Shown: positions 17,301 to 63,355 of the stretch, one piece after another
Numbering within the stretch: the first letter of the stretch is position 1
Layout of the letters: the number at the start of each line of letters is the position of its first letter
NCBI GenBank assembly: GCA_937951625.1
Contig: CALFBP010000010.1
Location: 62,001 to 126,000 of the forward strand
Reading direction: 5' to 3'
DNA: 64,000 nucleotides
Source: an uncultured Thermoguttaceae bacterium
GTDB lineage: Bacteria; Planctomycetota; Planctomycetia; Pirellulales; Thermoguttaceae
The notes under the pieces: model-generated
Databases searched by the model: none
Told to the model about the DNA's origin: nothing
What the model saw: only the letters and a program-made list of their open reading frames with translations
Made by a program: the position numbers and the translations under genes

Positions 17301-18572
17301 TCACCGCCACGATTTGACGGTGGGCAGATGGCCATGGGCGTCGAGGGGGAGGTCGCGCAGGGGAGTGAGCACCTCCAGGTCGTCGCGGTGGCGGGCCTCC
17401 TCGAAGTAGGCCGCCGAGCATTCGATTTCGGCCAATTCCAGGGTGTTCGAAATCCACAAGAGCCGGGCGTTGGCGGGTTCGACCAAACCGATCGTCCCCA
17501 AGGCCACATCGAGGATTTCCCGATCGGTTTCGTAATCCAACGGTGTCATGGCGGCCGCGAGGTGGCTTGCGGTAATCGCGTTGAGCCGGGTCGCTAGGAC
17601 ATCCATCTCGCGAAGCACTTGGCTCTTGCAGAACTCCGCACAGCCTAAGCCGACGGCGTTGCCGTGAGTCGCCTTGGTCAAGCCGCGGACCACGATGATT
17701 TTGACCTTCGGTACTTCGCCCTCCACGGCCTTATGATCGTCGAACTTTCGGCCCACCACGTTCGTGTCCAGGCCCGTCCCGCTGATGTCCTTGCCGATTT
17801 CGTCGATCAAAAGCACGTCGACCTGACTGAAGGGAAGCCTGGCCATCCACTGTTTGGCCAGGCGGAGGAGTTCTTTTTCGCGAGACTCGATATCCTCGGG
17901 CGCGATGGCTTCGATTCGTGCCGTCTGGTCGAAGGCGTTTTCTACGATCGCCACTCCGGCGACGATACGGCACCGCCGGATCACCTCCCCCGCCACGCTG
18001 CGGATGATCTGGCCGAAGCTATAGTCTTGGATCGCCCGATGGTAAATCGTGGCGCCCGCGCACTTGCCCAAGCCGATGAGCATCATCTTCATGAGTCCGC
18101 TTTCGATGTCGCCCACGAAGCGGGTATGGGGCTTGATGCGGTTGCAGACCACCACGTGATCGGCCTGGAAGGCATGGCGGTCGAAATGGACGGGAAAGCC
18201 TTCGGCCGTCTGGCAAACGACGACCGTCTCCATGCTGGAGCGGATCGGGCAACCGACGAAGGATTCGGTGACGCCATAGGATTCGATGACCGCCCGTTGC
18301 CCCTCGGCTGTCGCCCCCCCGTGACTGCCCATGGCCGGCACGATGAACGGCTCGGCCCCCAGATTTTGGAAATGCCGAACGATGGCCCGAAGAATCACCG
18401 CAATGTTGGCCACCCCGCGACTGCCCGCGGTGATCGCCACCGCTTGCCCTGGCCGCACTTTCTGTCTCAAATTCAGCTTGGAAAGCTCGGTCTCGACAGT
18501 CTCCGCGATATCCGCCACGCGCGGCGCAGCAAACTTCTGCCGTACCCGGAACATTTGAGGGTAGCCAGGCAT
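17301..18572 (-). CDS. Lactate racemase (LarA) N-terminal/DUF2088-like domain protein
   Basis: FRVRQKFAAPRVADIAETVETELSKLNLRQKVRPGQAVAITAGSRGVANIAVILRAIVRHFQNLGAEPFIVPAMGSHGGATAEGQRAVIESYG...NRIKPHTRFVGDIESGLMKMMLIGLGK. Confidence 0.8.
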   Translation of the reverse strand: MPGYPQMFRVRQKFAAPRVADIAETVETELSKLNLRQKVRPGQAVAITAGSRGVANIAVILRAIVRHFQNLGAEPFIVPAMGSHGGATAEGQRAVIESYGVTESFVGCPIRSSMETVVVCQTAEGFPVHFDRHAFQADHVVVCNRIKPHTRFVGDIESGLMKMMLIGLGKCAGATIYHRAIQDYSFGQIIRSVAGEVIRRCRIVAGVAIVENAFDQTARIEAIAPEDIESREKELLRLAKQWMARLPFSQVDVLLIDEIGKDISGTGLDTNVVGRKFDDHKAVEGEVPKVKIIVVRGLTKATHGNAVGLGCAEFCKSQVLREMDVLATRLNAITASHLAAAMTPLDYETDREILDVALGTIGLVEPANARLLWISNTLELAEIECSAAYFEEARHRDDLEVLTPLRDLPLDAHGHLPTVKSWR

Positions 18573-18803: not shown

Positions 18804-18968
18804 GATGACACAATGGTTCAAAACTCGCCGTTTTTGCCCTCAACCCCCTCAGGCAGCCACCGGCTCGGAGTTCTGAACCCCTGATGATCGCGGGGACCGG
18901 CTCGCTTGTCAAGCAGTCCGAAAACCGACCTATCACGAAAAGGAGCACAAGTCGAAGGAGCAAAAATC

Positions 18969-20423
18969 GTGGGAAAAACTATTTTTCGCGTTTTGAGCGA
19001 CGGTGAAATCGAGGCCCTGCATGAGAGAACCCTCGAAGTGTTCGAGACCGTCGGCATACGGATTACACACGAGGAAGCCCTCACCAAATTGGCTCGGGCT
19101 GGGGCCCGGGTCGATGCGAACTCTGGGGTCGTGCGTTTCCCCGCGCCATTGGTTCACGAGCTATTGAGCCTCGCGCCCTCGGTCGCCGTGTACTCGGGAC
19201 TCAATGGCCAAAGGCTCCAAGTTGGTGGGGAGAACCGCTATTACCTGTCGTTGATCCTTGATCCATTCATCGTCGATTACGAGCATGGGCTGCGTCGGCC
19301 GGTGCTCGAGGACGTGCGGCGGCACACGATCCTCGGCGAGTCGCTTTCGCGCGTCAACGCCATGATGCGGATGCAGTACCCCGTCAGCGACGTGCCCGAG
19401 CCCGACAGCTACCTTAAAACCATGGAGGTCTTCCTTTGCCATTGCACGAAGCACGTGTCGGCTTATCCCTCGTCGGAGGAGAATTGCCGCGAGTGGATGG
19501 ACGCGATGGCCGTGATTGCGGAGGCAGCCGGTTTGGACGTGGCGAGCGAGCCGCTGTTGAGCGTGGCCATGGCGGTGACCAGCCCCCTGACGGTTCACGG
19601 GCCGAACATCGCAATCATGAAAATGGCTTTGGAACGATCGTATCCGATCATTCCCACCGTCTGTCCCATGGCGGGGACCACCGCGCCCTATTCTTTGGCG
19701 GGCACCATGTTGACCGCGAACGTCGAGTCGTTGCTGCCAGTGCTCTTGGCTCAGGTGTTCAAGCCTGGACACCCGGCACTGTATGCGGTTGGCCCGTCCG
19801 TGACCGACATGCGGACTGGCCACGACCTTTACTACCGCGCTGAAAAGGCCCTCTTCAAGCTGGCGGGAATCCAAATGGGCCGGTTTTACCGCCTGCCCGT
19901 TGCCGGTGAAGCCGCGGGCACCCTCACGTGGCGGCCCGACGTGCAGAACGGGGCCGAGGGAATGCTCTATCTGCTGGCTTCGCTGGCCGCAGGCCAGAAC
20001 TTGATTGGTGGCCTCGGCAGCCTTCACAACGCCAATGGCATGAGCGCAGAACAGATCGTTCTGCAATGCGGGCTGGCGGACCTCGGCGAGTATGTCGTGC
20101 GCGGCATCGCCCTGGATGATCTCCAGGCTGCCGTGGAATCGCTCCGCCGCGTGGGACCCGGTGGCAATTTCCTCACCGATCCACTCACCCTGGAGCGGCT
20201 GCGGTCCAACGAATTCTTTCACAGCCCCTATCTGGATTTGAGTGGGGGCTACGTCGACTCAGCCCCCAGCATGGTCGAAATCGCTCACCACACCGTGGAA
20301 CGGCTGATCGCCGAGTACCGCCCAACGGTCCCGGAAAAGGTCTGCGAGGCCCTGCAACGCTTCTTCCACGATAAGTACCGCGATCCCGCTGTGCGTTCGC
20401 TTTCCGCCCGACGCCCATCGTGA
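18969..20423 (+). CDS. Trimethylamine methyltransferase (MttB)-superfamily protein, non-pyrrolysine type
   Basis: GKTIFRVLSDGEIEALHERTLEVFETVGIRITHEEALTKLARAGARVD...FPAPLVHELLSLAPS; no in-frame TAG. GTG start at 18969 preceded by AAGGAG. Confidence 0.88.
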   Translation: MGKTIFRVLSDGEIEALHERTLEVFETVGIRITHEEALTKLARAGARVDANSGVVRFPAPLVHELLSLAPSVAVYSGLNGQRLQVGGENRYYLSLILDPFIVDYEHGLRRPVLEDVRRHTILGESLSRVNAMMRMQYPVSDVPEPDSYLKTMEVFLCHCTKHVSAYPSSEENCREWMDAMAVIAEAAGLDVASEPLLSVAMAVTSPLTVHGPNIAIMKMALERSYPIIPTVCPMAGTTAPYSLAGTMLTANVESLLPVLLAQVFKPGHPALYAVGPSVTDMRTGHDLYYRAEKALFKLAGIQMGRFYRLPVAGEAAGTLTWRPDVQNGAEGMLYLLASLAAGQNLIGGLGSLHNANGMSAEQIVLQCGLADLGEYVVRGIALDDLQAAVESLRRVGPGGNFLTDPLTLERLRSNEFFHSPYLDLSGGYVDSAPSMVEIAHHTVERLIAEYRPTVPEKVCEALQRFFHDKYRDPAVRSLSARRPS

Positions 20424-20529
20424 AATCGCGAACAGGGAATCGGGGCGGCCCTCCCCTGCCCAAGACGCGGTGCTGGGGTCGAGCGACCGGGCCGCGCAGC
20501 CTAATTTCGCGGCAGGCTGTCAATCGCCC

Positions 20530-21408
20530 TCACCCGGCCGAGGAATAGAATTGGCGGACCCGCATGATCGCCTCGAAACCAGGCTGACGGATGCAGTCCT
20601 CCAGGCAGCGCATGGCCGGATGATCTGGCGGCAGGAGTTCGTAGTTGCGCTTCACCGAGCCAATGATCATGTCCAATCCCAGCGGCATCGCCTTGGTCAG
20701 GAAGGCACTTTCGAGCGGGCCCTTGACAGGCGCTCCGTCGGGCCTCTTGGCTGGCAGCATCACGGTGAAGTTGCTCAGTCCCACGGAAACGTGAATCCCC
20801 TGGAACTCGGGATCCTTATGGATCAACTCCAGGCCGGCAATGAGTCGGGCAAGATTGCCTTCCGAGTCGCTGCCAATGGGCGCGATGCCGGGATCTATGA
20901 TGCAATCGTCGTTGCTTAGGGCAGGTTTCGCATTCCGCGCGGCGGCCAGAAGGAACTTGGCGGCTTCATACGTTTCCTCCGCGGTGCGACACGGGCGCGA
21001 CGCCCCATCTTCCACCCGTTCCGAAACGAGCAAGATGGGACGAAACGGCTGAACCGCCATCAGATCGAACATCGCCGTGCGCAGGGGCGAAATGGAATTG
21101 AGGATCGGCCTCTGACCTCCCGCTCGATCCAGATCGTAGGCCTCCAATCCAGCCTTGGCGATTTCGAAATCAGGCGTGTCGATCGACAGGGGCTTGGACG
21201 TTACCGACTGGATTTTTCGCACGATCTCCGCCATGAAAGCCGGCGGGCGGAGTCCCACATTGACGTCGATGTAGGCCGCCCCTTTTTCGTCTTGCATCCG
21301 CGCCAATTCGAGAATCCCTTCGATGTCGTTGGCGTCGAACAACTTCTTCGTGGAGGGAACCGAGTCGTTGATCGTCTCGCCGATGATCGTTAAGCCTGGA
21401 ATCGACAT
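20530..21408 (-). CDS. Methyltetrahydrofolate:corrinoid methyltransferase / pterin-binding (DHPS-like) protein
   Basis: MSIPGLTIIGETINDSVPSTKKLFDANDIEGILELARMQDEKGAAYIDVNVG...KPLSIDTPDFEIAKAGLEAYD...GIHVSVGLSNFTVMLP; AcsE/MtvA-like pterin-binding TIM barrel. Confidence 0.87.
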   Translation of the reverse strand: MSIPGLTIIGETINDSVPSTKKLFDANDIEGILELARMQDEKGAAYIDVNVGLRPPAFMAEIVRKIQSVTSKPLSIDTPDFEIAKAGLEAYDLDRAGGQRPILNSISPLRTAMFDLMAVQPFRPILLVSERVEDGASRPCRTAEETYEAAKFLLAAARNAKPALSNDDCIIDPGIAPIGSDSEGNLARLIAGLELIHKDPEFQGIHVSVGLSNFTVMLPAKRPDGAPVKGPLESAFLTKAMPLGLDMIIGSVKRNYELLPPDHPAMRCLEDCIRQPGFEAIMRVRQFYSSAG

Positions 21409-21941
21409 GAATCGCTCCTGTCCTGATGTTGCACGTTCACCTGTTGTCTCATGAAAGAAGAGGTCAAAGCGAACCGCCGTCAAGCTACTTGCCCCGCTCG
21501 GCCCTCGCAATTACCACGCTGCCTAACCGAAGGTGGATAACAGCTTGCCTGGTGGACTTGACGCGCGGAGCGCACGAGTCGTCGCGACTGAGCTGCATCG
21601 TAAAGACGTGAGAATATCGCAACGTAACCGCTCTGGGAAGTGGTGAAGCCGTTTACTCTTGGACGGGAGGTATCGGGAGGTACGGGCCCTTTCACCTCCA
21701 GCCCGCGTCTCGGTCCGACTTTAGGACACGACTTCCGCTTTCTCGGCCTAAGCCAAGTCGATTTTTTCGCGAGGCCCGCTCTTGGCGTTTCGCAAGCGGC
21801 CGGAGGGCCTTGCGTCGCGGGAAAGATTTTTTCCGCAATCGAGCAGCCCTCGCGGCGCGCGAAGGTAACGCAGTTGAGGCCCGGGAGGTCGCCGTTATGC
21901 CCCAAAAAATGCGAGTCGCACCGTATCGGCCATGTCGTGGC

Positions 21942-35860: not shown

Positions 35861-38542
35861 TCAGCTCGCCCCGACGCGCGTCACGCGCACCGCGCAGACC
35901 TTGGTCTCGGGGATTTTGGCCACCGGGTCCAGCGCCGCGTGTGTCAGCAGGTTGGTGGGTGTGTCGGGGAAATGGAAGGTGAGGGAGACGACACCGGGCG
36001 GGCAGACCTCGGTGACGTGGGCCGCCACCACGACTTTCCCCCGCCTCGACGACACCTCGACCCGCTCCCCGTCATGGATTCCCAAACGCGAGGCGTCCTC
36101 AGGGTGAATCCTCAAGAATTCCTGGCCGCTCAATGACCGCAGCCCATCGACGCGGAGCGTCATCGTACCCGTGTGGTAATGGTACAGACTTCGATCGGTG
36201 GTCAAGAGGAGAGGATAGTCTTGATCGGGTAGCTCGGCGGGCGGTTTGAACTGAAGCGGCACCAGCCGCGCCTTGCCACTGGGGGTCGGAAAGCGCTGGC
36301 CATGGAGCATGGGCGTTCCCGGGTGTTCGCGCGTCGGGCAAGGCCAGTGCAGACCGCCGTTTTCCAGCCGATCGTAGGCGATTCCGCCGTAACTCGGCGT
36401 CAGCGAGGCGATCTCGGCCATGATCGCCGCGGGATCGGCAAAGTCGAAACCGCTCGCGCCCATGCGCCGGGCGATCTGGCAGGTGATCCACCAGTCGGGC
36501 CGGGCCTCGCCCAAGGGCTCGATCGCCTTGCGCACGCGTTGCACGCGGCGCTCGGTGTTGGTAAACGTTCCATCCTTTTCCGCGAACGTGGCTGCCGGCA
36601 GGACCACGTGCGCCAGTTGGGCGGTCTCGGTCAGGAAGATGTCCTGAGCGACGAAGAACTCCAAATGGCGGAGGGCTTCCACGACATGGTTCGCGTCGGC
36701 CTCGCTCAGCACGGGGTTCTCGCCGACGAGGTAAACGGCCTTGATTTGCCCCTCGATCATGGCGTGGAAGGTCTCGGTCATCGCCATGCCCGGTCGATCG
36801 GAAAGCGTGCAGCCCCAGGCAGACTCGAACTTCTGCCGCACCGCGGGATCGTCGACCCGCTGGTAGCCCGGATACACATTCGGCAAAGCCCCCATGTCGC
36901 AGGCGCCCTGCACGTTGTTTTGACCGCGCAAGGGGTTCACCCCGCTGGACGGCCGCCCCAGGTTGCCGGTGACCAACGCCAGGTTGCTGATGGCCAAAAC
37001 GTTGTCGGTGCCGTGGCTGTGCTGAGTGATGCCCATGGCGTAGAGGATACTGCCAGGCTTTCGGGTGGCGAACATCCGCGCCGCGTGAACCACCGCGTCG
37101 GCGGGAACGCCGGTCAGCCGCTCCACGGTCTCCAAGTCCCAACTGGCCAACGATTCACGCAGCGTCTCGAAACCCTCGCAGCGTTCGGATACGAAGGCCG
37201 GGTCCCAAAGCCCCTCGTCGACAATTACGCGAAGCATTCCCATGAGCAAGGCCACGTCGCTCCCTGGCTTTTGCCGGATCCAGATCGTGGCGTGACGGCA
37301 GAGGTCGACCTCCTTGGGGTTGGCGACGATCAAAGCAGCGCCGCGGCGCACGGCGTCCTTGACGTGCAATCCAATGATCGGATGAGCGGCCGTGGTGTTG
37401 CAGCCGATGGCCAGGATGCAGGCGGCTTCGCGGATATCACCAATCGGATTGGTCATGGCCCCGCTGCCCAAGGTTTGCAACAGTCCCGCCACGCTCGGGG
37501 CATGGCAGAGCCGGGCGCAGTGATCCACGTTGTTGCTCTGCATCACTTGCCGAGCGAACTTTTGAATCAGGTAATTTTCCTCGTTCGTGACGCGGGCCGA
37601 GGCCATGGCGGTAAACTGGCTGCCGCGATACGCCGAAAGCCGATTGGCCACCAAATCCAAGGCCTCGTCCCAGGTGGCCTCGACGTGCTTGCCGTTCTTT
37701 TTGATGAGCGGCCTGGTCAATCGCTCCGGATGGTGGATGAAGTCGTGGCCGAATCGGCCTTTCACGCACAACCGGCCGTGGTTGACGGGGTTTTCCGTAT
37801 CGCCGCGGGCCGAAACCACCTTCCCGCCACGCACGCCAAGGTAAATGCCGCAGCCTGTACCACAATAAGGACAGGTGGTCTTGACCTCGCGTACGGGCGG
37901 CAGAGCTTTCTTCGGCGCCAAGGCGCCGACGGGGCAGCGGACCACGCACTCGCCGCAGGATTCGCAGCGCGACTCGACGATCGGGCGCCCTCCAAACGTG
38001 CTCACCCGCGTGCGAAAGCCCCGAAACGCGAAGTCCAACGCCCCCACGCCCACGATCTCGTCGCAGGTGCGGATGCAGATGCCGCAAAGAATGCACTTGT
38101 CGTGGTTGAGCGTAAAGAAGGGATTGGAATCGTCGATCTCGCCCGAGGGGCTGGGACGCCTCATGCGGGCCAGGCGCTGCTGGTCCACGCCGACCCAGGC
38201 CGCCACCTCATGCAGCTTGCACTGTTCGCTCTTCGCGCAGACGAGACAGTCGCCGTGATGGTTCAAAATCAGCAGCTCGACGGCGATTCGCCGGGCGGCG
38301 TCGATCGCCGGGTGATCGGTAGAGATTACCATGCCGTCCTCGGCGGGTGCCCGGCAGGACAGCATCTGCCCACGCCCCTCCACGTGGACCAGGCACACGC
38401 GGCAGATGCCGACCGGTTCCAAGTCGGGATGATGGCAGAGATGGGGAATATACACGCCGTGCTGGAGAGCGGCCTCCAAGATGGTTGTTCCAGGCCGGGC
38501 CGAGATCGTCCGGCCGTCGATCGTCAACTTGATTTCACTCAT
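35861..38542 (-). CDS. fdhF: Formate dehydrogenase alpha subunit, NAD-linked type, Cys at the Mo/W ligand position
   Basis: N-terminal [2Fe-2S] NuoG-like domain (GVYIPHLCHHPDLEPVGICRVC), 4Fe-4S ferredoxin motifs (CILCGICIRTCDE; CESCGECVVRCPVGAL), CPYCGTGCGIYLG, and VDHCARLCHAPSVAGL where Sec-type enzymes have U. Confidence 0.94.
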   Translation of the reverse strand: MSEIKLTIDGRTISARPGTTILEAALQHGVYIPHLCHHPDLEPVGICRVCLVHVEGRGQMLSCRAPAEDGMVISTDHPAIDAARRIAVELLILNHHGDCLVCAKSEQCKLHEVAAWVGVDQQRLARMRRPSPSGEIDDSNPFFTLNHDKCILCGICIRTCDEIVGVGALDFAFRGFRTRVSTFGGRPIVESRCESCGECVVRCPVGALAPKKALPPVREVKTTCPYCGTGCGIYLGVRGGKVVSARGDTENPVNHGRLCVKGRFGHDFIHHPERLTRPLIKKNGKHVEATWDEALDLVANRLSAYRGSQFTAMASARVTNEENYLIQKFARQVMQSNNVDHCARLCHAPSVAGLLQTLGSGAMTNPIGDIREAACILAIGCNTTAAHPIIGLHVKDAVRRGAALIVANPKEVDLCRHATIWIRQKPGSDVALLMGMLRVIVDEGLWDPAFVSERCEGFETLRESLASWDLETVERLTGVPADAVVHAARMFATRKPGSILYAMGITQHSHGTDNVLAISNLALVTGNLGRPSSGVNPLRGQNNVQGACDMGALPNVYPGYQRVDDPAVRQKFESAWGCTLSDRPGMAMTETFHAMIEGQIKAVYLVGENPVLSEADANHVVEALRHLEFFVAQDIFLTETAQLAHVVLPAATFAEKDGTFTNTERRVQRVRKAIEPLGEARPDWWITCQIARRMGASGFDFADPAAIMAEIASLTPSYGGIAYDRLENGGLHWPCPTREHPGTPMLHGQRFPTPSGKARLVPLQFKPPAELPDQDYPLLLTTDRSLYHYHTGTMTLRVDGLRSLSGQEFLRIHPEDASRLGIHDGERVEVSSRRGKVVVAAHVTEVCPPGVVSLTFHFPDTPTNLLTHAALDPVAKIPETKVCAVRVTRVGAS

Positions 38543-38671
38543 GCATCCGTCACTCCTGCCCAACGTTGTACCCCCGGGCGCCTTCGCCAAGCCGCGCACG
38601 GGCCTCGCACGGCCCGATTACCTCGCCACGGGAGCAAGCCCCAACGAAGGGTGCATCGGCTCCGGCAATTT

Positions 38672-40555
38672 TTAAGGTCCGGCGTGGACCAAGGCATTGG
38701 GCACTTTGATCACCGCGCCCGTGCGGCAGACTTCGAAACAAGCCCCGCATTTGATGCATTTTTCGACCACGATGCGGTGAGCGCCTTTCAGTTCGCCTAC
38801 GACAGCTTCGACGGGGCAGTTCTTCTGACACAACCGGCAGCCCTTACAAAGCGCCTCGTCGATCTGATACTGGAATAGCGGCTTGCAAACCCCGGCCGGG
38901 CAACTCTTCTCTCTCAAATGCGCCTCATACTCGTCGCGAAAACACCGGATGGTCGTGAGCACGGGATTGGGCGCGGTTTGACCTAGGCCGCACAGCGAAC
39001 CCCTCGCGACCCCCTCGGCGATTTGTTGGAGCAGCTCGATGTCGCCGGGCCGCCCTCGGCCCTCCGTCAAATCCGTGAGAATCTCGTGCATTTGCCGCGT
39101 GCCGAGGCGGCAGGGCACGCATTCCCCGCACGATTCCTTCTGGGTGAAGTCCAAAAAGTATCGGGCGAAATCGACCATGCAAGTCGTGTCATCCATGACC
39201 ACCATGCCGCCCGAGCCCATGATGCTGCCGGCCGCCTTGAGCGAGTCGTAATCCACAGGCGTGTCCAGCAGGTCGGCCGGGATGCAGCCGCCGGAAGGAC
39301 CGCCGGTTTGCACGGCCTTGAAGGGCCGATCGTCGAGCACCCCACCGCCAATCTCGTAAATCATCTCGCGGAGCGTGATACCCAAGGGAACTTCGATCAG
39401 CCCTGGGCGTTTGACCTGGCCCACCAGGGCGAAGGTCTTCGTACCTTTACTCTCAGCCGTACCGTACTGAGCGAACCATTCCGCGCCGTGGCGGAGGATC
39501 AAACTGACGCAAGCCAAGGTTTCCACGTTGTTGATGATCGTCGGCTTGCCCCACAGCCCGGCGATGGCAGGAAACGGCGGGCGGGGCCGGGGCATGCCGC
39601 GGCGGCCCTCGATCGAGGCGATCAGGGCCGTCTCCTCACCACACACAAAGGCCCCTGCCCCTTCCTTGATCTTGATGTGGAACGAGAACCCGGAGCCTAG
39701 CACGTTGTCTCCGAGCAAACCCAATTCCTCCGCCTGAGCGATGGCCGTGCGGAGCCGGTCCAACGCCAAGGGATATTCGGCCCGACAATAGATATAGCCG
39801 GTTTGCGCCCCCAAGGCATACCCGCCGATCAGCATCCCTTCAAGCACGGCGTGCGGATCGCCCTCGAGGAGCGAGCGGTTCATGAACGCCCCTGGATCGC
39901 CCTCATCGGCGTTACACACGATGTACTTCACGTCGCTGGGGGCTTGCCGGCAGAAGGACCATTTCCGCCAGGTCGGAAACCCCGCTCCCCCACGGCCTCG
40001 TAGACCCGATCGCTTCAGCTCCTCGATAACCCGCTCCGGCCCAATTTCCAAGGCCCGGGCCAGGCCTCCGTAGCCGTCCATGGCCAGGTAGTCCTGAATG
40101 CTCGTCGGGTCGATGAAGCCGCAATTCTTGAGTGTGCGACGAACTTGGCGTTTGAAAACCGGTGTTTCCCAAAGCAGCGGGATGTCGGGGGGCGGTTCTC
40201 CATCCATCGCACCCAAGGCATACTGCGGCAAGGGATCCTCCCCTACGAGGTATCGTTCGACGATCTCTCGAGCCCGCTTGGGGGTGACCTCGCCGTAGAG
40301 GATTGTGGGGCGAGAGGGTTTGGTAACGCAAACGATGGGCTCGGCATAGCACAAGCCGATACAGCCAACCTCGACGAGGAAGCAATCCACTCCCAAAGCG
40401 GCGGTTGCTTCACGAAAGGCCGCCAAAGTGTCCAGGGAGCCCGCCGACCGGCCACAGGTGGCCGTCCCCACGCGGATCACTGGACGCGATCCGTGTGCCG
40501 AGGCGTCCCACGCCTGTCGGGCCTGCCCACGCAAATCTGATAAAGCGGCCATCAT
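38672..40555 (-). CDS. NADH-binding NuoF-like / HydB-type subunit with N-terminal thioredoxin-like [2Fe-2S] and C-terminal 2x[4Fe-4S] domains
   Basis: GTATCGRSAGS...VEVGCIGLCYAEP; GLRGRGGAGFPTWRKWSF (NADH), NADEGDPGAFMNRSLLEGDPHAVLEGMLIGGYA (FMN), ESCGECVPCRLGTRQM (4Fe-4S), CKGCRLCQKNCPVEAV...CIKCGACFEVCRTGAV. Confidence 0.95.
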   Translation of the reverse strand: MMAALSDLRGQARQAWDASAHGSRPVIRVGTATCGRSAGSLDTLAAFREATAALGVDCFLVEVGCIGLCYAEPIVCVTKPSRPTILYGEVTPKRAREIVERYLVGEDPLPQYALGAMDGEPPPDIPLLWETPVFKRQVRRTLKNCGFIDPTSIQDYLAMDGYGGLARALEIGPERVIEELKRSGLRGRGGAGFPTWRKWSFCRQAPSDVKYIVCNADEGDPGAFMNRSLLEGDPHAVLEGMLIGGYALGAQTGYIYCRAEYPLALDRLRTAIAQAEELGLLGDNVLGSGFSFHIKIKEGAGAFVCGEETALIASIEGRRGMPRPRPPFPAIAGLWGKPTIINNVETLACVSLILRHGAEWFAQYGTAESKGTKTFALVGQVKRPGLIEVPLGITLREMIYEIGGGVLDDRPFKAVQTGGPSGGCIPADLLDTPVDYDSLKAAGSIMGSGGMVVMDDTTCMVDFARYFLDFTQKESCGECVPCRLGTRQMHEILTDLTEGRGRPGDIELLQQIAEGVARGSLCGLGQTAPNPVLTTIRCFRDEYEAHLREKSCPAGVCKPLFQYQIDEALCKGCRLCQKNCPVEAVVGELKGAHRIVVEKCIKCGACFEVCRTGAVIKVPNALVHAGP

Positions 40556-41013
40556 GACTTGCCGTTTCCCCCGAACAGTTTGGCGATCTTTTTGGGCGTC
40601 AATTTCGCTTCCACCCGTTTGTTGACCATCATGCACGGCGAAAGCCCACACGCGCCGATACAAGCGACAGTCTCTAGCGAATACTCGAGGTCGGGTGTGG
40701 CCTCGCCCTCTTTGATGCCCAAGTGTTTTTCGATCGCTTCCAAAATCCGCGGTGCGCCCCGCACATGACAGGCCGTACCGCGGCAAACCATGATGTGGTT
40801 CCTACCGATCGGCGTGAAGCGGAACTGGGCGTAGAAGGTGGCCACTGCATAGACGGCGCTTTCCGGCACCCGAATGAATCGGGCGATCGCCAGCATGGCG
40901 TCGTTGGGTAGATAGCCGAAGTGCTGCTGCACATCCTGCAACAACGGGATCAGCTCCTCTCGGCTCCCTTGGTAAGAGGAGAAGATCGATTCCAAGCACT
41001 CGCACTCCGCCAT
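40552..41013 (-). CDS. NuoE-like [2Fe-2S] subunit (24 kDa family)
   Basis: LIPLLQDVQQHFGYLPNDAMLAIARFIRVPESAVYAVATFYAQFRFTPIGRNHIMVCRGTACHVRGAPRI...VACIGACGLSPCMMVN; ATGA overlap with the NuoF-like gene. Confidence 0.95.
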   Translation of the reverse strand: MAECECLESIFSSYQGSREELIPLLQDVQQHFGYLPNDAMLAIARFIRVPESAVYAVATFYAQFRFTPIGRNHIMVCRGTACHVRGAPRILEAIEKHLGIKEGEATPDLEYSLETVACIGACGLSPCMMVNKRVEAKLTPKKIAKLFGGNGKS

Positions 41014-56313: not shown

Positions 56314-57369
56314 ATGAAAATTGGGATATTCCTCCCCAATTGGTTGGGCGACTTGGTAATGGCAACTCCCGCGCTCCGCGCTATACGACGCCGATACGGC
56401 TCCAGCGCGAGAATGATTGGCATCATGCGACCCCATTTGGCTGAGGTGTTGAACGGCACGTCATGGCTTGACGAGCAATGGTACTTCAACCCTCACAGCA
56501 AAGACCCCGAGCTTCGTCCTTGGGCCTTGATTCGGAGGATGCGGCAGGAGCGGATCGATGTTGCTTTGCTGTTTCCAAACTCAATGCGGGTAGCCATCGT
56601 AGCGCAATTGGGGGGGGCCAAAGAACGGGTGGGCTACGCCCGCTACGGTCGCGGTCCTTTGCTGACGCGAAAAGTAGACTCTCCCCAAGCGGGCGGTCTG
56701 GCTAAACCCTGTCCCATGGTGGATTACTTCCTCAGATTGAGCGAGGCGATGGGGTGCCCGCCGGAGTCCCGAAGGCTCGAATTGGCAACCACTCCTGAGG
56801 ACGAACGCTCGGCCGACTTGGTTTGGGAACGGCTGGGCTTGCGGAGCGATGGCCGTGTAATGACATTCAACTGTAGCGGGGCTTACGGTTCAGCCAAGCT
56901 CTGGCCCATCGAGCACTTTGGTGACTTGGCCAGAAGCGTCGCCCGTGACTTGGATCACGATGTGCTAGTCCTGTGCGGACCCAAAGAGCGGGGGATTGCG
57001 CGAGCCATCGTAGCGCGGGCCGAACATCCGCGGGTATTCTCGATGGCCGATCAGCCGATTGACCTGGGCACGGCCAAGGCTTGCATTCGTCGGGCAAAAA
57101 TGATGGTTTCAACCGACAGTGGTCCCCGCCATGTGGCCGCGGCGTTCGGCAAACCGGTGGTCACCCTCTACGGCTCGATGCCGCCCGTCTTCGGCGAGAA
57201 TCCCACCGTGCTTGCCGTCGACTTGCGTTTGGACCTCGATTGCATCGGCTGTCAGAATCGCGTGTGTCCGTTGGGACACCACAAGTGTATGCGTGACCTC
57301 ACGCCGGATATGGTATACCGTGAGGTGGCCCGCTTGGTCCGCGAAGACCGCGCCGCCCATGCAGCGTGA
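56314..57369 (+). CDS. waaF: Lipopolysaccharide heptosyltransferase II-like (glycosyltransferase family 9)
   Basis: MKIGIFLPNWLGDLVMATPALRAIRRRYG...LLFPNSMRVAIVAQLGGAKERVGYARYGRGPLLT...MVSTDSGPRHVAAAFGKPVVTLYGSMPP. Confidence 0.9.
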   Translation: MKIGIFLPNWLGDLVMATPALRAIRRRYGSSARMIGIMRPHLAEVLNGTSWLDEQWYFNPHSKDPELRPWALIRRMRQERIDVALLFPNSMRVAIVAQLGGAKERVGYARYGRGPLLTRKVDSPQAGGLAKPCPMVDYFLRLSEAMGCPPESRRLELATTPEDERSADLVWERLGLRSDGRVMTFNCSGAYGSAKLWPIEHFGDLARSVARDLDHDVLVLCGPKERGIARAIVARAEHPRVFSMADQPIDLGTAKACIRRAKMMVSTDSGPRHVAAAFGKPVVTLYGSMPPVFGENPTVLAVDLRLDLDCIGCQNRVCPLGHHKCMRDLTPDMVYREVARLVREDRAAHAA

Positions 57370-57447: not shown

Positions 57448-58080
57448 TCAGGGCGTGTTCAGCAGAAGGTCGCACTCTTCGAAAGACGGCGAGCGAAGGT
57501 TCACACAGCGAATGCGGACCAACGACACCGCCGCTTGAGGGAAAAAGCGGTCCACGAATCCGACCTCGGCCGCGTGCTCGGCGGTGAAGGGGGGGTTCGG
57601 GAGACTCGACTTCAAAAGGACCAACTCGCCCGCACGCAGGAATCTCGCGAGCCGGGCAGCGATCGAGTCGCTCGTCACGTCCCACGAATGTGGCAAGGGA
57701 GCGAGCTGGCTCAGGCCCGACTGCCGCAGCAAAACCTCTTCTTCGCGGAGGTAGTGCTCAGGGTCCAAAATGGCCAGGGGCGATGCCTTCTGGACGGCGG
57801 CAAACTCGTTGGGGTGCTTGAGCAGGCTCGCCTCGGGCAAAATGTTGGCCGCCAGTTCCGCAGTAACGCCAAGCAGTCGGATGCAAAGCCAATGGGCCGC
57901 TTCCTCGGTCAGCGGATGTAGTGCGAAGGCCTCGCGGATCGCATCGGCAAGGCGCCCTCCGCCGACAAGCATGAGGTTTTGCGCAGGCGTTTGGCTCGCC
58001 AACCAGGCGCGAAGGGAAGATACCAACTGGCGAAAGTCCAGCAGACTTCCCCCAAGCTTGATGACGCGCAGCGGAAGCAT
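57448..58080 (-). CDS. mfnE: Amino-acid-kinase-fold protein, putative [5-(aminomethyl)furan-3-yl]methyl phosphate kinase (MfnE-like)
   Basis: MLPLRVIKLGGSLLDFRQLVSSLRAWLASQTPAQNLMLVGGGRLADAIREAF...HWLCIRLLGVTAELAANILPE...SWDVTSDSIAARLARFLRAGELVLLKS; adjacent to MfnF- and MfnD-like genes. Confidence 0.72.
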   Translation of the reverse strand: MLPLRVIKLGGSLLDFRQLVSSLRAWLASQTPAQNLMLVGGGRLADAIREAFALHPLTEEAAHWLCIRLLGVTAELAANILPEASLLKHPNEFAAVQKASPLAILDPEHYLREEEVLLRQSGLSQLAPLPHSWDVTSDSIAARLARFLRAGELVLLKSSLPNPPFTAEHAAEVGFVDRFFPQAAVSLVRIRCVNLRSPSFEECDLLLNTP

Positions 58081-58167
58081 CGCAATCCTCCAAGGTGTTC
58101 CCAAGTTGGCCGAGAAACCCGCGGGGCATTGACGACGTGCCCTACGGCGGTCCGTGGAGACGTGCTT

Positions 58168-59238
58168 TCAATTTCCTGCTTCCCGGGCCAACACGGCAAG
58201 GGCATGGGCCGTTGCCGCGCGCGAGATTTCGCTTCCCAAGACTTGGCCGAGCGAGGTCACGGGGGCGTCGATTCCGCTTCGCGCCAGCGCCCGACGGGCA
58301 AGGAATTCGCCTGCACCCGACACCACCACGCCAGTAGGCCGCTCGGCCGACCTTTCGACGACCATAGCTATGGCAGCGGCCACTTGATGACATTGGGCCT
58401 CGGCCACCTCTCGGGCCATTCCCAAGGCATCGACGCGACTCACCATGGTCCGATCTGCGCAAATCATTCGGGCGAAGCGGTCGTGGGCATACTCTCGGGT
58501 CGCCGGGCGACCATCGGCCGTGTGCAAACTGTCTGGCTCCTCCGGCAAATCGCCCAGCAGCAAGTAAGCGTCCCACGTCGTGGCGAACACCTCCTGAGCC
58601 ACCGCGCACGTTGCGTTTCGCGAGGGCCAGCCGAGGCGGCCCACGATGCCGCAGATCGGGCTCCGCTGCACGCCCGTGTAGATCAACTCGCCGCAAGCGA
58701 GACGCTCGGGATCGGTGCGGCCAAGGGCCACCACGCGGCCGTCGCGCAAGGGAATCACGTCGCAGGTGGTGGAGCCGATGTCGATCAACAGCCCCACTCC
58801 CTGCGGCACAAACCGCCCGGAGAACCGCGCCAAGGCGTGCCAATTCGACGCCGCGGCTCGTAGCGGGTTGGCAATGGCCTCCTCGGGCGTGGCCCAAGAG
58901 CCGTCGGTCAGGTACACGCGGATGGAAACGCCCGAGGCTGCGGCTTGCCGCCCCTCGGCCTTGACTTGCTTGACGTGCGCGGCGTGGACGGCGGCCTGAA
59001 CCGCCCTGACAATCGCGGCTACGCCCTCCGCCTTCGTGGCAAAGCAATCGGCCAGTTCGCCCGTCATCGTCACGGCCACGCGATTGGCCGGCGGAGCGGC
59101 GGCGAGCAAATCGGCGATGGCCTTGGGCAACTCGGCCGGATGACGCCACAAGGCGAACGGGCGGACGGTGGCAAACCCCCTGCCATCCGCCGCCTTCAGG
59201 TTCGCCCCGCCAATGTCCAAGGCAATCCAAGCATTCAT
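58168..59238 (-). CDS. mfnF: Hydantoinase/oxoprolinase-like H4MPT-linked C1 pathway protein (MfnF-like)
   Basis: MNAWIALDIGGANLKAADGRGFATVRPFALWRHPAELPKAIADLL...VAVTMTGELADCFATKAEGVAAIVRAV...GVGLLIDIGSTTCDVIPLRDGRVVALGRTDPERLACGELIYTGVQRSPICGI...VVSGAGEFLARRAL. Confidence 0.85.
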   Translation of the reverse strand: MNAWIALDIGGANLKAADGRGFATVRPFALWRHPAELPKAIADLLAAAPPANRVAVTMTGELADCFATKAEGVAAIVRAVQAAVHAAHVKQVKAEGRQAAASGVSIRVYLTDGSWATPEEAIANPLRAAASNWHALARFSGRFVPQGVGLLIDIGSTTCDVIPLRDGRVVALGRTDPERLACGELIYTGVQRSPICGIVGRLGWPSRNATCAVAQEVFATTWDAYLLLGDLPEEPDSLHTADGRPATREYAHDRFARMICADRTMVSRVDALGMAREVAEAQCHQVAAAIAMVVERSAERPTGVVVSGAGEFLARRALARSGIDAPVTSLGQVLGSEISRAATAHALAVLAREAGN

Positions 59239-60359
59239 ACGTGGTCAGCCATCTGGCCAACGACCTTTGCGATCCCGCGCGACTCGAACCGGCAATTCCC
59301 GTCCGCGTCGAATTGTACCTGGACTGGCCGGAACGAGAATCGCGGAACGCGACCTTGGCAAACATCGAGCAGTGCGGCTGCAAGATTGGTTTCCTCAGCC
59401 GCGGCAGCGCGAAGGCCAACGTAGGAAGTGGTCAACCGCGGATTGATTTCGATCACGAAGTCATCGCGGCCGTTGGGGTCGGCGCCGAGAACCAGATCCA
59501 CGCCCAAGTAACCCATCACGCCAGGCAACGTGGCCACGCTCCGCACGGCGAGTTCCGCGGCGCGGCGGGCCAAGCCGTTTTCCAAGGGTAGAGAGCCGCC
59601 GAGATAGTGAAATCTCCCGTCGGCGCTGAGACGCTGCCGGCACGGCAGCAAAGGAAACAGACCCGCGGGGCCGCAAAGCACGGCCACGCTCGCGGCCGTA
59701 CCCGGGTGGAATCGCTCGATCCTGGCTGGCCCGCGGAACCGCGCTAGCCACGATTCGGCTGCTGCACGATGTTCCAAAAAGTGGACCTCCTGAGAACCAG
59801 CGCCGAGGCAGGGTTTTCCTACGGCAGGAAAATCGACCGTCCTCGGAAGCGAAGCTCCGGGTTCGATCCGCCATCCGCGAGGAACCGGCAGGTTGAAACG
59901 GCTCAGGTGCTCGGCCGTGGCGTGTTTATCGGAAGTGAGAGCCACTGTCTCGAGGGAGGGTCCGAGCAGCCTTCCGCCCGCCGCCTCGACCCACCGGCAT
60001 CGTTCCAGCAGGGCATGGTCCAACTCCGGCGCGATGACGATGGTCGCGTCGCAGGCCGCGGCCAACTCCCCAAAGGCTGTCCTCTCCTCCTCGGCCGTGT
60101 GGACGTGGCGGAACCTCACTCCCGCCATTTCGCCAGCAGCGCGATCTGGCCCGCCAGTTCGGTCCCTCGCTGCGAGACGAGAGCGGACCCAACGATGGTC
60201 CCGAAGCATGTCCACCTGCGCGCCGACCGCGACGAGGTCGGCCGCCATGGCCGCGGCCATGGCGGCGCCTTCGCAGAGGAGCGAGTCGGGCGGCCACCCC
60301 CAGCCGTCGTGCAAAAACCCGCCGCCCGTGACGAACTCGTACAGAAAAATGCGCTGCAC
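59235..60359 (-). CDS. mfnD: ATP-grasp protein (tyramine--L-glutamate ligase MfnD-like), GTG start
   Basis: VQRIFLYEFVTGGGFLHDG...LLCEGAAMAAAMAADLVAVGAQVDMLRDHR...ATIVIAPELDHALLERCRWVEAAGGRLLGPSLETVALTSDKHATAEHLSRFNLPVPRGWRI...VMGYLGVDLVLGADPNGRDDFVIEINPRLTTSYVGLR. Confidence 0.82.
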   Translation of the reverse strand: MQRIFLYEFVTGGGFLHDGWGWPPDSLLCEGAAMAAAMAADLVAVGAQVDMLRDHRWVRSRLAARDRTGGPDRAAGEMAGVRFRHVHTAEEERTAFGELAAACDATIVIAPELDHALLERCRWVEAAGGRLLGPSLETVALTSDKHATAEHLSRFNLPVPRGWRIEPGASLPRTVDFPAVGKPCLGAGSQEVHFLEHRAAAESWLARFRGPARIERFHPGTAASVAVLCGPAGLFPLLPCRQRLSADGRFHYLGGSLPLENGLARRAAELAVRSVATLPGVMGYLGVDLVLGADPNGRDDFVIEINPRLTTSYVGLRAAAAEETNLAAALLDVCQGRVPRFSFRPVQVQFDADGNCRFESRGIAKVVGQMADHV

Positions 60360-60445: not shown

Positions 60446-63043
60446 TTACTCGACCACCGTCGTTTGTTCCTCGAACACGGTGCGGTACAAGGGCAGGTGG
60501 CGATAATAGACCTGCAAAGTCAGGATGGCCATGGAGGTGGCGTACATGCGGCCGCCCTGTTTACCCCAGTCGGCCCCCTCGGGATTCCAGCTTCCCGCCT
60601 TATGGCCCTCGCGCTGCTGCGTGCGGATGAGGTGTTCGCGCATGCGGTGGTTCCAGAGGTCGAACTCGTCGCCCTCCATGTGGTGGAGCACCTGAGTGGC
60701 GTAGTAATAGTAGTAGGCGGGCCCCAAGTTCGTGCCGCTTTCCGGAGGCAGGTTGGTCATCAGGTATTTGACGCCGGCCAACAAGGCGGGCGTGTCCTTT
60801 TTCCAACCGAGGTACTGGCGCGTGAGCAATCCGGCGGCAGTGACGGAATGGCCCGCCGTTCCTTCGGGCATGTAACTATAACGCGACATTCGCGATTCCG
60901 CCGGCCCGGCGGCGCAGGAATCGACGAAGCGAGCCGCCCGAATCAGCGGGTCTTTGTCGATCGTCAGACCAGCGAGTTGGCCCGACCGGATGGCCAAAAA
61001 CATCCATCCGACGGCCGACATGTCGCCGGGTTGACGAGGCCCATAACGCCAGCCGCCTTCTTTGTGCTGCGACTGCATGATGTACTTGATCGCGCGCTGA
61101 GCAGGAAGCCGCAGGGCTTCGTGACCCGACAAACCGAACGCCTCGCACAAGGCAATGGTTCCCAAGGCGTGTGCGTACATGTTGCCGTCGAGTTTTCCGT
61201 CGACGTTGGGGTCTTTGCTTTCCACCTGCTGGCTGCGGAGGAAGCGGAGGCCCTTGAAGACGACCTCCTTATACTCCGCCAATTCCGGCGGATCGGCGGG
61301 CGCGCCGCGATGGTGGACCCCGGCGCCCAAGAATGGCAAGACACCGAAGGCCGTTGCCGCCGTATCGCTGTTGACGGCCTCGCTGTTTTTGTCCTCGCAG
61401 TCACAGCCCTCGATTTCCGCGGAATAGCCCTTGAGTTTCCAGCGTCCATCTTCGAGCTGGTGCTTCGCCAGCCACTTCAGGCCGCGCATCACGGCGGCCT
61501 CGGATTCGGGAGTGCCGCCATAGGCCTCCAGCAGGGCACGCTTGCTTTCGGCCGTCAATCGCCCCCCAAAAGAACCTCGCCGGAGAAGGGACTTCAGGTT
61601 CGGGTTCTCCAGGACCTCGCGGGGTAAGAAGCCCTTGCCAGCCAGCGAGACGCGGACGACGATCGGGTCGTCGCGCTTTTTATCGCCGCCGGTGGCCAGC
61701 ACCTTGGCCGAACGCACCCGTTCCTTGGCTTGCGGGGCCGCGCTGAACTCCAACGTCGCCGTGTTCTGGTCCGCACTGACTTGAACCGTCTTGACGGTGA
61801 CGCCTTCGGGCAAGCCGACGGCGTCGATCTGGAGCGGTCCCTTGTAGGTGCGGCGTTCGATGGGCACCTGCACCCGCTTCGTTTCGCCAGGCTGGAGCTT
61901 GACCACCATGAACGACTTGACCCGGAACGGCGTACGATCGACCAATAGCGGGGCCTCGACCTCGACGACCCGCCCGTACAACTTCGTGAACACCTTGACC
62001 GAGGCCTTTCCATCGGGCACGTCGCCTGAGGCGGTGACCGGCACCTTCACCGACCTTTGATCGGCGGCAAGTTTCACCGGCTTGCCCGTAAACTTTCCAG
62101 GGACCTCTTGCACCTGAATCTCCATCGGCCCCTGAAATTCACCGCGGTCCACCGACAGATCCAATTCCACCGTGGCGTTGGGCTGAATGGGCGTCTCGGG
62201 TGGGGGCAACAAACGCGGCAAAAACACTTTAGGCACGGAAATCTCAAGCGTCTGTTCCGCTTGGGTTGGCGTGGCGGGAACTCGCCGCAACGCTCGGGAG
62301 GCGACGGCAGTACCCGGCGTTGGTGGCGGAGCTTTCGGCTCCGGCGAACTGGGCTGCGGCGCAGGCTTGGCGGCCGGCATCGCTCCCGGCTTCGGACTTG
62401 GCATGGCCCCCGGCATGGCTCCCGGCATGGCTCCCGGCATCGCCTCGGGCATGGCTCCCGGCATGGCCCCCGGCATCGCCTCGGGCAAGGCTCCCGGCAT
62501 GGCCGCCGGCATGGCACTTGGCATGGCACTTGGCATGGCGCCAGAGGCGGGACTCGTGGTAGTAGGGGCAGGACCAAGATCCGCGACCACTTTGATGGTC
62601 ATCTTCAACGGTTCGTCGCCCAATTTTTCCGAGGCCGTGATTTCCAATTGTCCCTCCGACTTGTCCTCGGGAATCTCGCACGGCTTGGCGGTGATTTCTT
62701 CGGGAACCTCGCTCAATTGCACATGAACCGGCCCTTTGTTGCCTTTGCGGTCGATCTGTACCGTGACCGTCGCCGTTCCCGCAGGTTCCAAGGTAATGGG
62801 CGACAAGGGGGCCATCGCCATCTTGACAGGCGCGGCAGGTACGTCGGGCACAGGGGGTGGCGCCTGGACCTGAGGGGCGGGTGCGCTCTTGGCGGGTTCG
62901 GGAGGCGGCGATGATTTGCCGCAACCGAGCGCTAGTACCAGCGAAACCGCGACCGCTGTTTGAATTGGCCACAACAATCCAGGGCAAGACGAACCAGGAT
63001 CAATCCAAAGGCGAGAGCGAAGATGCAGTGAGAGAGTCTTCAT
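60446..63043 (-). CDS. Prenyltransferase/squalene-oxidase-like alpha-toroid repeat protein, putative lipoprotein, with low-complexity GAMP repeat region
   Basis: Signal and possible lipobox (VAVSLVLALGCGKSS); C-terminal alpha-toroid repeats (AVMRGLKWLAKHQLEDGRWKL; VFKGLRFLRSQQ; AIKYIMQSQHKEGGWRYGPRQPGDMSAVGWMFLAI; GVKYLMTNLP). Confidence 0.85.
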   Translation of the reverse strand: MKTLSLHLRSRLWIDPGSSCPGLLWPIQTAVAVSLVLALGCGKSSPPPEPAKSAPAPQVQAPPPVPDVPAAPVKMAMAPLSPITLEPAGTATVTVQIDRKGNKGPVHVQLSEVPEEITAKPCEIPEDKSEGQLEITASEKLGDEPLKMTIKVVADLGPAPTTTSPASGAMPSAMPSAMPAAMPGALPEAMPGAMPGAMPEAMPGAMPGAMPGAMPSPKPGAMPAAKPAPQPSSPEPKAPPPTPGTAVASRALRRVPATPTQAEQTLEISVPKVFLPRLLPPPETPIQPNATVELDLSVDRGEFQGPMEIQVQEVPGKFTGKPVKLAADQRSVKVPVTASGDVPDGKASVKVFTKLYGRVVEVEAPLLVDRTPFRVKSFMVVKLQPGETKRVQVPIERRTYKGPLQIDAVGLPEGVTVKTVQVSADQNTATLEFSAAPQAKERVRSAKVLATGGDKKRDDPIVVRVSLAGKGFLPREVLENPNLKSLLRRGSFGGRLTAESKRALLEAYGGTPESEAAVMRGLKWLAKHQLEDGRWKLKGYSAEIEGCDCEDKNSEAVNSDTAATAFGVLPFLGAGVHHRGAPADPPELAEYKEVVFKGLRFLRSQQVESKDPNVDGKLDGNMYAHALGTIALCEAFGLSGHEALRLPAQRAIKYIMQSQHKEGGWRYGPRQPGDMSAVGWMFLAIRSGQLAGLTIDKDPLIRAARFVDSCAAGPAESRMSRYSYMPEGTAGHSVTAAGLLTRQYLGWKKDTPALLAGVKYLMTNLPPESGTNLGPAYYYYYATQVLHHMEGDEFDLWNHRMREHLIRTQQREGHKAGSWNPEGADWGKQGGRMYATSMAILTLQVYYRHLPLYRTVFEEQTTVVE
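62376..62541 (-). repeat. Coding tandem repeat, 12-bp unit encoding (G/S/A/E)AMP
   Basis: Plus strand shows reiterated GGCATGGCTCCC / GGCATCGCCTCG units; protein reads SGAMPSAMPSAMPAAMPGALPEAMPGAMPGAMPEAMPGAMPGAMPGAMPSPKPGAMPAAK. Confidence 0.93.
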
Positions 63044-63355
63044 GGCAGCACTCCACCGATTAAAAAGAATTTTTCCCACAAGTAGGGATGTTTTCTGATT
63101 CTCGGCTCTGACTGGGCTATGGCCGAGAGTGCGCCAACCAGAAATTTTTTCCGCCTAGGAATATGGCATTCTCGGAATAAGCGAACGAATGAATGGATTG
63201 TCAATTGGTCCGATCAGCCTTGTCAATCCCCCACTCCCGAGTCATCACCTGAACTATCAGGGTCCCACGAAGGATTCCTGATCCTAGCACACGGCGAATC
63301 GGAAGCTTCTATTATTGACAGCTAGCCCGATGCCCCTGTCCGACCATCGCTGCCG

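Follow-up and report, generated by a model that had tools for sequence, protein, structure and literature searches.

Genes for H4MPT- and methanofuran-linked C1 transfer were reported in planctomycetes in 2004 and were covered by a review in 2016 (PMC5020050), and their evolutionary origin in this phylum has been discussed as well (PMC3505017). The role of the corresponding reactions in non-methylotrophic species has been termed enigmatic (PMC5020050). For the biosynthesis of the cofactor in proteobacteria, Orf9, Orf21 and Orf22 are the homologues of MfnF, MfnE and MfnB, respectively, and a homologue of MfnD is encoded by orf1 (Mfla_1650), while MyfA and MyfB lengthen the glutamate tail (PMC8141765). 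A published account of the Thermoguttaceae, the family of the host studied here, contains nothing on C1 metabolism. Since the planctomycete genes have been known since 2004, the locus described below belongs to an already familiar type of system, with a predicted function.

Organization of the three-gene locus and identity of its products

The window, i.e. the whole stretch of 64,000 nucleotides that was analysed, comes from contig C10 in a Pirellulales assembly of 4.59 Mb (105 contigs, 97.9% complete). A preliminary description of this DNA had claimed three co-directional genes on the minus strand with a 4 bp overlap between the first two, and both the coordinates and the strand were found as described. 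The first gene (mfnD-like, 59235..60359, 374 aa, GTG start) encodes an ATP-grasp ligase with a predicted function as tyramine/tyrosine:L-glutamate ligase. It overlaps, through the sequence ATGA, with an mfnF-like gene (58168..59238, minus strand, 356 aa, ATG start) encoding a condensing enzyme of the orf9 family (TIGR03123). The third gene, mfnE-like and of the orf21 family (57448..58080, minus strand, 210 aa), is separated from the mfnF stop by 87 bp, and its ATG start is directly preceded by GGAGG. Its product, a small protein with an amino-acid-kinase fold, is predicted to be an aminomethylfuran-phosphate kinase. The operon is flanked by a heptosyltransferase-like gene on the plus strand (56314-57369) and, on the other side, by a gene (60446-63079) whose large product contains squalene-cyclase-like repeats. 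Neither neighbour has an obvious relation to the mfn genes.

HMM searches were performed for all three protein families. The MfnF protein passed the NCBIfam model TIGR03123 (H4MPT-linked C1 transfer pathway protein) with 277 bits, the cut-off being 244.1, and PF01968 (Hydantoinase_A) was also found above the Pfam cut-off, in agreement with its original description as an MfnF-like protein of the hydantoinase/oxoprolinase fold. It further matched the archaeal structures 3c0b and 3cet (3.3e-34), with the 3c0b match spanning the whole length, and its close relatives belong to Pirellulales planctomycetes. The equivalog NF040623 was matched with 163 bits and its archaeal cut-off of 520 was not reached; the functional claim for MfnF rests on context.

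For the other two proteins, the equivalog models were the best matches in NCBIfam, but remained below their archaeal cut-offs. The MfnD protein, earlier called an MfnD-like ATP-grasp enzyme, contains PF02655 (ATP-grasp_3) and PF18301, both above the Pfam cut-off, and scored 60.9 bits against NF040722 (cut-off 400); the same model matched all 11 planctomycete MfnD-like members scanned, again below the curated cut-off. In the MfnE protein PF00696 (AA_kinase) was present above the Pfam cut-off, and NF040622, matched here with 46.5 bits (cut-off 300), recognized 13 out of 13 planctomycete MfnE-like members scanned. As the MfnE assignment had been rated the weakest of the three, profiles of MfnE and MfnD were built from relatives to test it. 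The MfnD profile found 3df7 as its best PDB match over the whole length (2.6e-17). The MfnE profile matched chain 7qrh along its whole length (positions 2-184, 1.5e-17), versus 3e-4 for the next best match, a UMP kinase, with UMP and acetylglutamate kinases all at 3e-4 or worse. We take 7qrh to be an MfnE, its record reading only Asp/Glu/uridylate kinase; the motifs KxGGS, GGG and LPxSWxxTSDSxAA are common to this chain and the planctomycete kinases. Based on these matches, the MfnE call held. All three proteins score far under the archaeal equivalog cut-offs, so their substrate specificity may differ. It also follows that the archaeal NCBI cut-offs overlook bacterial MfnD and MfnE proteins that are very probably real.

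Conservation of gene order and co-occurrence with mch

The order mfnD-mfnF-mfnE recurs across the Pirellulales and in some other planctomycetes, which indicates that the arrangement in the host is not due to chance. Among planctomycete loci with enough flanking sequence, mfnF is directly preceded by mfnD in 53 of 72 and directly followed by mfnE in 54 of 72, and the complete set is found in order in 39 of 63, counts that include a few loci entering twice from one genome by two routes. In two species of genus g31 (G012 and G043) MfnD and MfnF are fused in one open frame (L138:2834-4912 and L152:3930-6218), strongly supporting a shared pathway. Both a conserved operon and a natural fusion of two of its products are thus documented in planctomycetes.

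Within a set of 148 genomes of the order, mfnF is nearly always accompanied by mch and vice versa. MfnF was identified in 118 and Mch in 116 of these genomes; 113 encode both, five only MfnF, three (all incomplete genomes) only Mch, and 27 neither (Fisher p ~2e-21, shared ancestry ignored). In five genomes of family f7 (G059, G076, G082, G087 and G096, from genera g61 and g70), two of which are single-contig, MfnF (loci L143-L147) and Ftr (loci L158-L162) are present and no match to Mch was found. The gene mfnE adjoins mfnF in all five, with mfnD upstream in three (G059, G087 and G096). Their Ftr proteins score lower than those of relatives, and a comparison of the Ftr neighbourhoods with the pathway proteins of the host recovered Ftr alone. 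The presence of methanofuran genes and a formyltransferase without Mch hints at a shortened or different bacterial C1 route in f7, with the pathway in the host family surviving in few lineages; we put this forward as a tentative and rather doubtful reading.

Remaining pathway genes and proposed function

The absence of fhc, mch, mtdB and fae from the window had been noted before. This is consistent with searches of the whole genome, which placed these functions on other contigs. Genes above the curated cut-offs were identified for mch (contig C37), mfnB (C25), fhcD/ftr (C35), fae (C49), fhcA (C39) and fhcB (C26), so that Fae, Mch, Fhc/Ftr and MfnB are all encoded in one genome with the mfn operon. 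An mtd-type gene with an Mpt_N domain (methylene-H4MPT dehydrogenase, N-terminal) adjoins fae, and a gene for an MptN/MyfB-like ligase adjoins mch. A second MfnD-like ATP-grasp gene, located near fae on the minus strand (L049:6336-7487), is a candidate for MyfA. A TAG considered as an in-frame stop within fhcA proved to be the natural end of this gene, which is intact.

Based on the profile identities, the conserved order, the fusion, the co-occurrence with mch and the presence of most remaining pathway genes in the genome, the three genes are interpreted, with a probability of roughly 0.93, as a planctomycete methanofuran/methylofuran biosynthesis operon serving an H4MPT pathway encoded elsewhere. 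The earlier suggestion that this bacterium makes a methanofuran-type cofactor for formaldehyde or formyl transfer, which a lack of H4MPT/methanofuran genes elsewhere in the genome would have refuted, is thereby supported by genes outside the window, its chemistry being predicted. Every reaction, as well as the direction of the pathway (formaldehyde oxidation or detoxification), is deduced from characterised archaeal and proteobacterial homologues. According to this prediction, MfnD would join glutamate to tyramine (or tyrosine), while MfnB, together with some transaminase, would provide aminomethylfuran phosphate, which MfnE would convert to the diphosphate. MfnF would then condense both moieties to give the core of the cofactor, and the glutamate tail would probably be lengthened by the ATP-grasp ligases that resemble MyfA and MyfB and whose genes lie near fae and mch. 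The finished cofactor is expected to function in the H4MPT pathway through Fae, Mtd, Mch and Fhc, and formate could be passed on to a formate dehydrogenase encoded in the window.

This formate dehydrogenase (35861-40786), which was absent from the preliminary description, consists of an alpha subunit with a NuoG-like N-terminus (35861..38599, minus strand; TIGR01591, 846 bits, cut-off 666) and a NuoF-like partner subunit (38672..40786, minus strand; PF01512 and PF10589; NF010120, 394 bits, cut-off 389), the start codon of the latter being provisional. It could plausibly catalyse the terminal step from formate to CO2 and in this way be functionally tied to the operon. The window also contains an MttB-family methyltransferase gene (18906-20423) adjoining a gene for a methyltetrahydrofolate:corrinoid-type methyltransferase on the opposite strand (20530-21510); this pair (18906-21510) is possibly another C1 entry route. 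A nickel-pincer cofactor-dependent isomerase of group 22 (LarA-like, 17301-18572) was also identified above the NCBIfam cut-off.

Alternative explanations and comparison with known systems

The folds of the three proteins are widespread and MfnD and MfnE score below the equivalog cut-offs, as could be expected if three proteins with no link to methanofuran, namely a generic ATP-grasp ligase, a relative of hydantoinases/oxoprolinases and a kinase of the acetylglutamate/UMP type, had become neighbours by chance. This is already contradicted by the other pathway genes found genome-wide, and the conserved order, the fusions, the co-occurrence of mfnF with mch and the fact that the MfnD and MfnE models outscore those of argB, pyrH, purK and rimK on the window proteins leave it a negligible likelihood. 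A methanofuran-type operon could still make a variant cofactor, e.g. tyrosine-based or with another tail, instead of archaeal-type methanofuran. This possibility, raised because the planctomycete enzymes are divergent and not exclusive with the main reading, has about even odds. It is favoured by the low similarity to the archaeal models, by the MptN/MyfB-like and second MfnD-like ATP-grasp genes in the genome and by the proteobacterial methylofurans, which are of tyrosine or tyramine type with long glutamate tails (PMC8141765). However, most tyrosine-type strains are without an MfnD homologue (PMC8141765), whereas the host operon has one, and a tyramine core is therefore favoured.

In the host family, MfnF was found in only three of 120 genomes, i.e. 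the host and two assemblies with 6-9% contamination, a distribution which could also point to an assembly contaminant or a recent lateral import. Yet the window contig and five other pathway contigs (C26 with fhcB left out) showed a tetranucleotide correlation of 0.95-0.98 to the rest of the genome, compared to 0.925 for the best other planctomycete locus, and for the contigs sampled contamination was rejected on this basis. Lateral transfer is unsupported by the trees: the three MfnF sequences of the family form one group (support 93/90), those of the host (G000) and G154 group in the concatenated D-F-E tree (99/98), and the family sequences share about 50% identity with other families. A contaminant or a recent import is considered very unlikely. 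In the rpoB tree the host falls inside its family (99/93), at a place that is unresolved. The simplest reading of the pattern is inheritance from the ancestor of the family followed by loss in most of its members; among the family genomes sampled, loss beyond mfnF was shown for mch only. A lineage that keeps these genes within a family largely devoid of them is useful for asking what the pathway is used for in planctomycetes.

Compared with the archaeal MfnA-F enzymes of Methanocaldococcus jannaschii, the host has homologues of MfnB, MfnD, MfnE and MfnF with equal predicted steps, but its sequences are divergent, falling below the equivalog cut-offs, and its mfnD, mfnF and mfnE form an operon. 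With the proteobacterial methylofuran genes (PMC8141765) it shares equivalents of Orf9, Orf21 and Orf22, an MptN-like MyfB and MfnD-like ligases, as well as a cofactor predicted to feed Fhc. In M. extorquens, however, these genes are gathered with fhc in a single archaeal-like cluster and mfnD is missing, whereas the host possesses mfnD and has its pathway distributed over seven contigs. A third comparison is with the H4MPT/methanofuran C1 genes that Chistoserdova et al. (2004) described in planctomycetes (review: PMC5020050). Although the family of the host is nearly always without it, the phylum and the gene complement are the same, and the system of the host corresponds to the one already described in planctomycetes.
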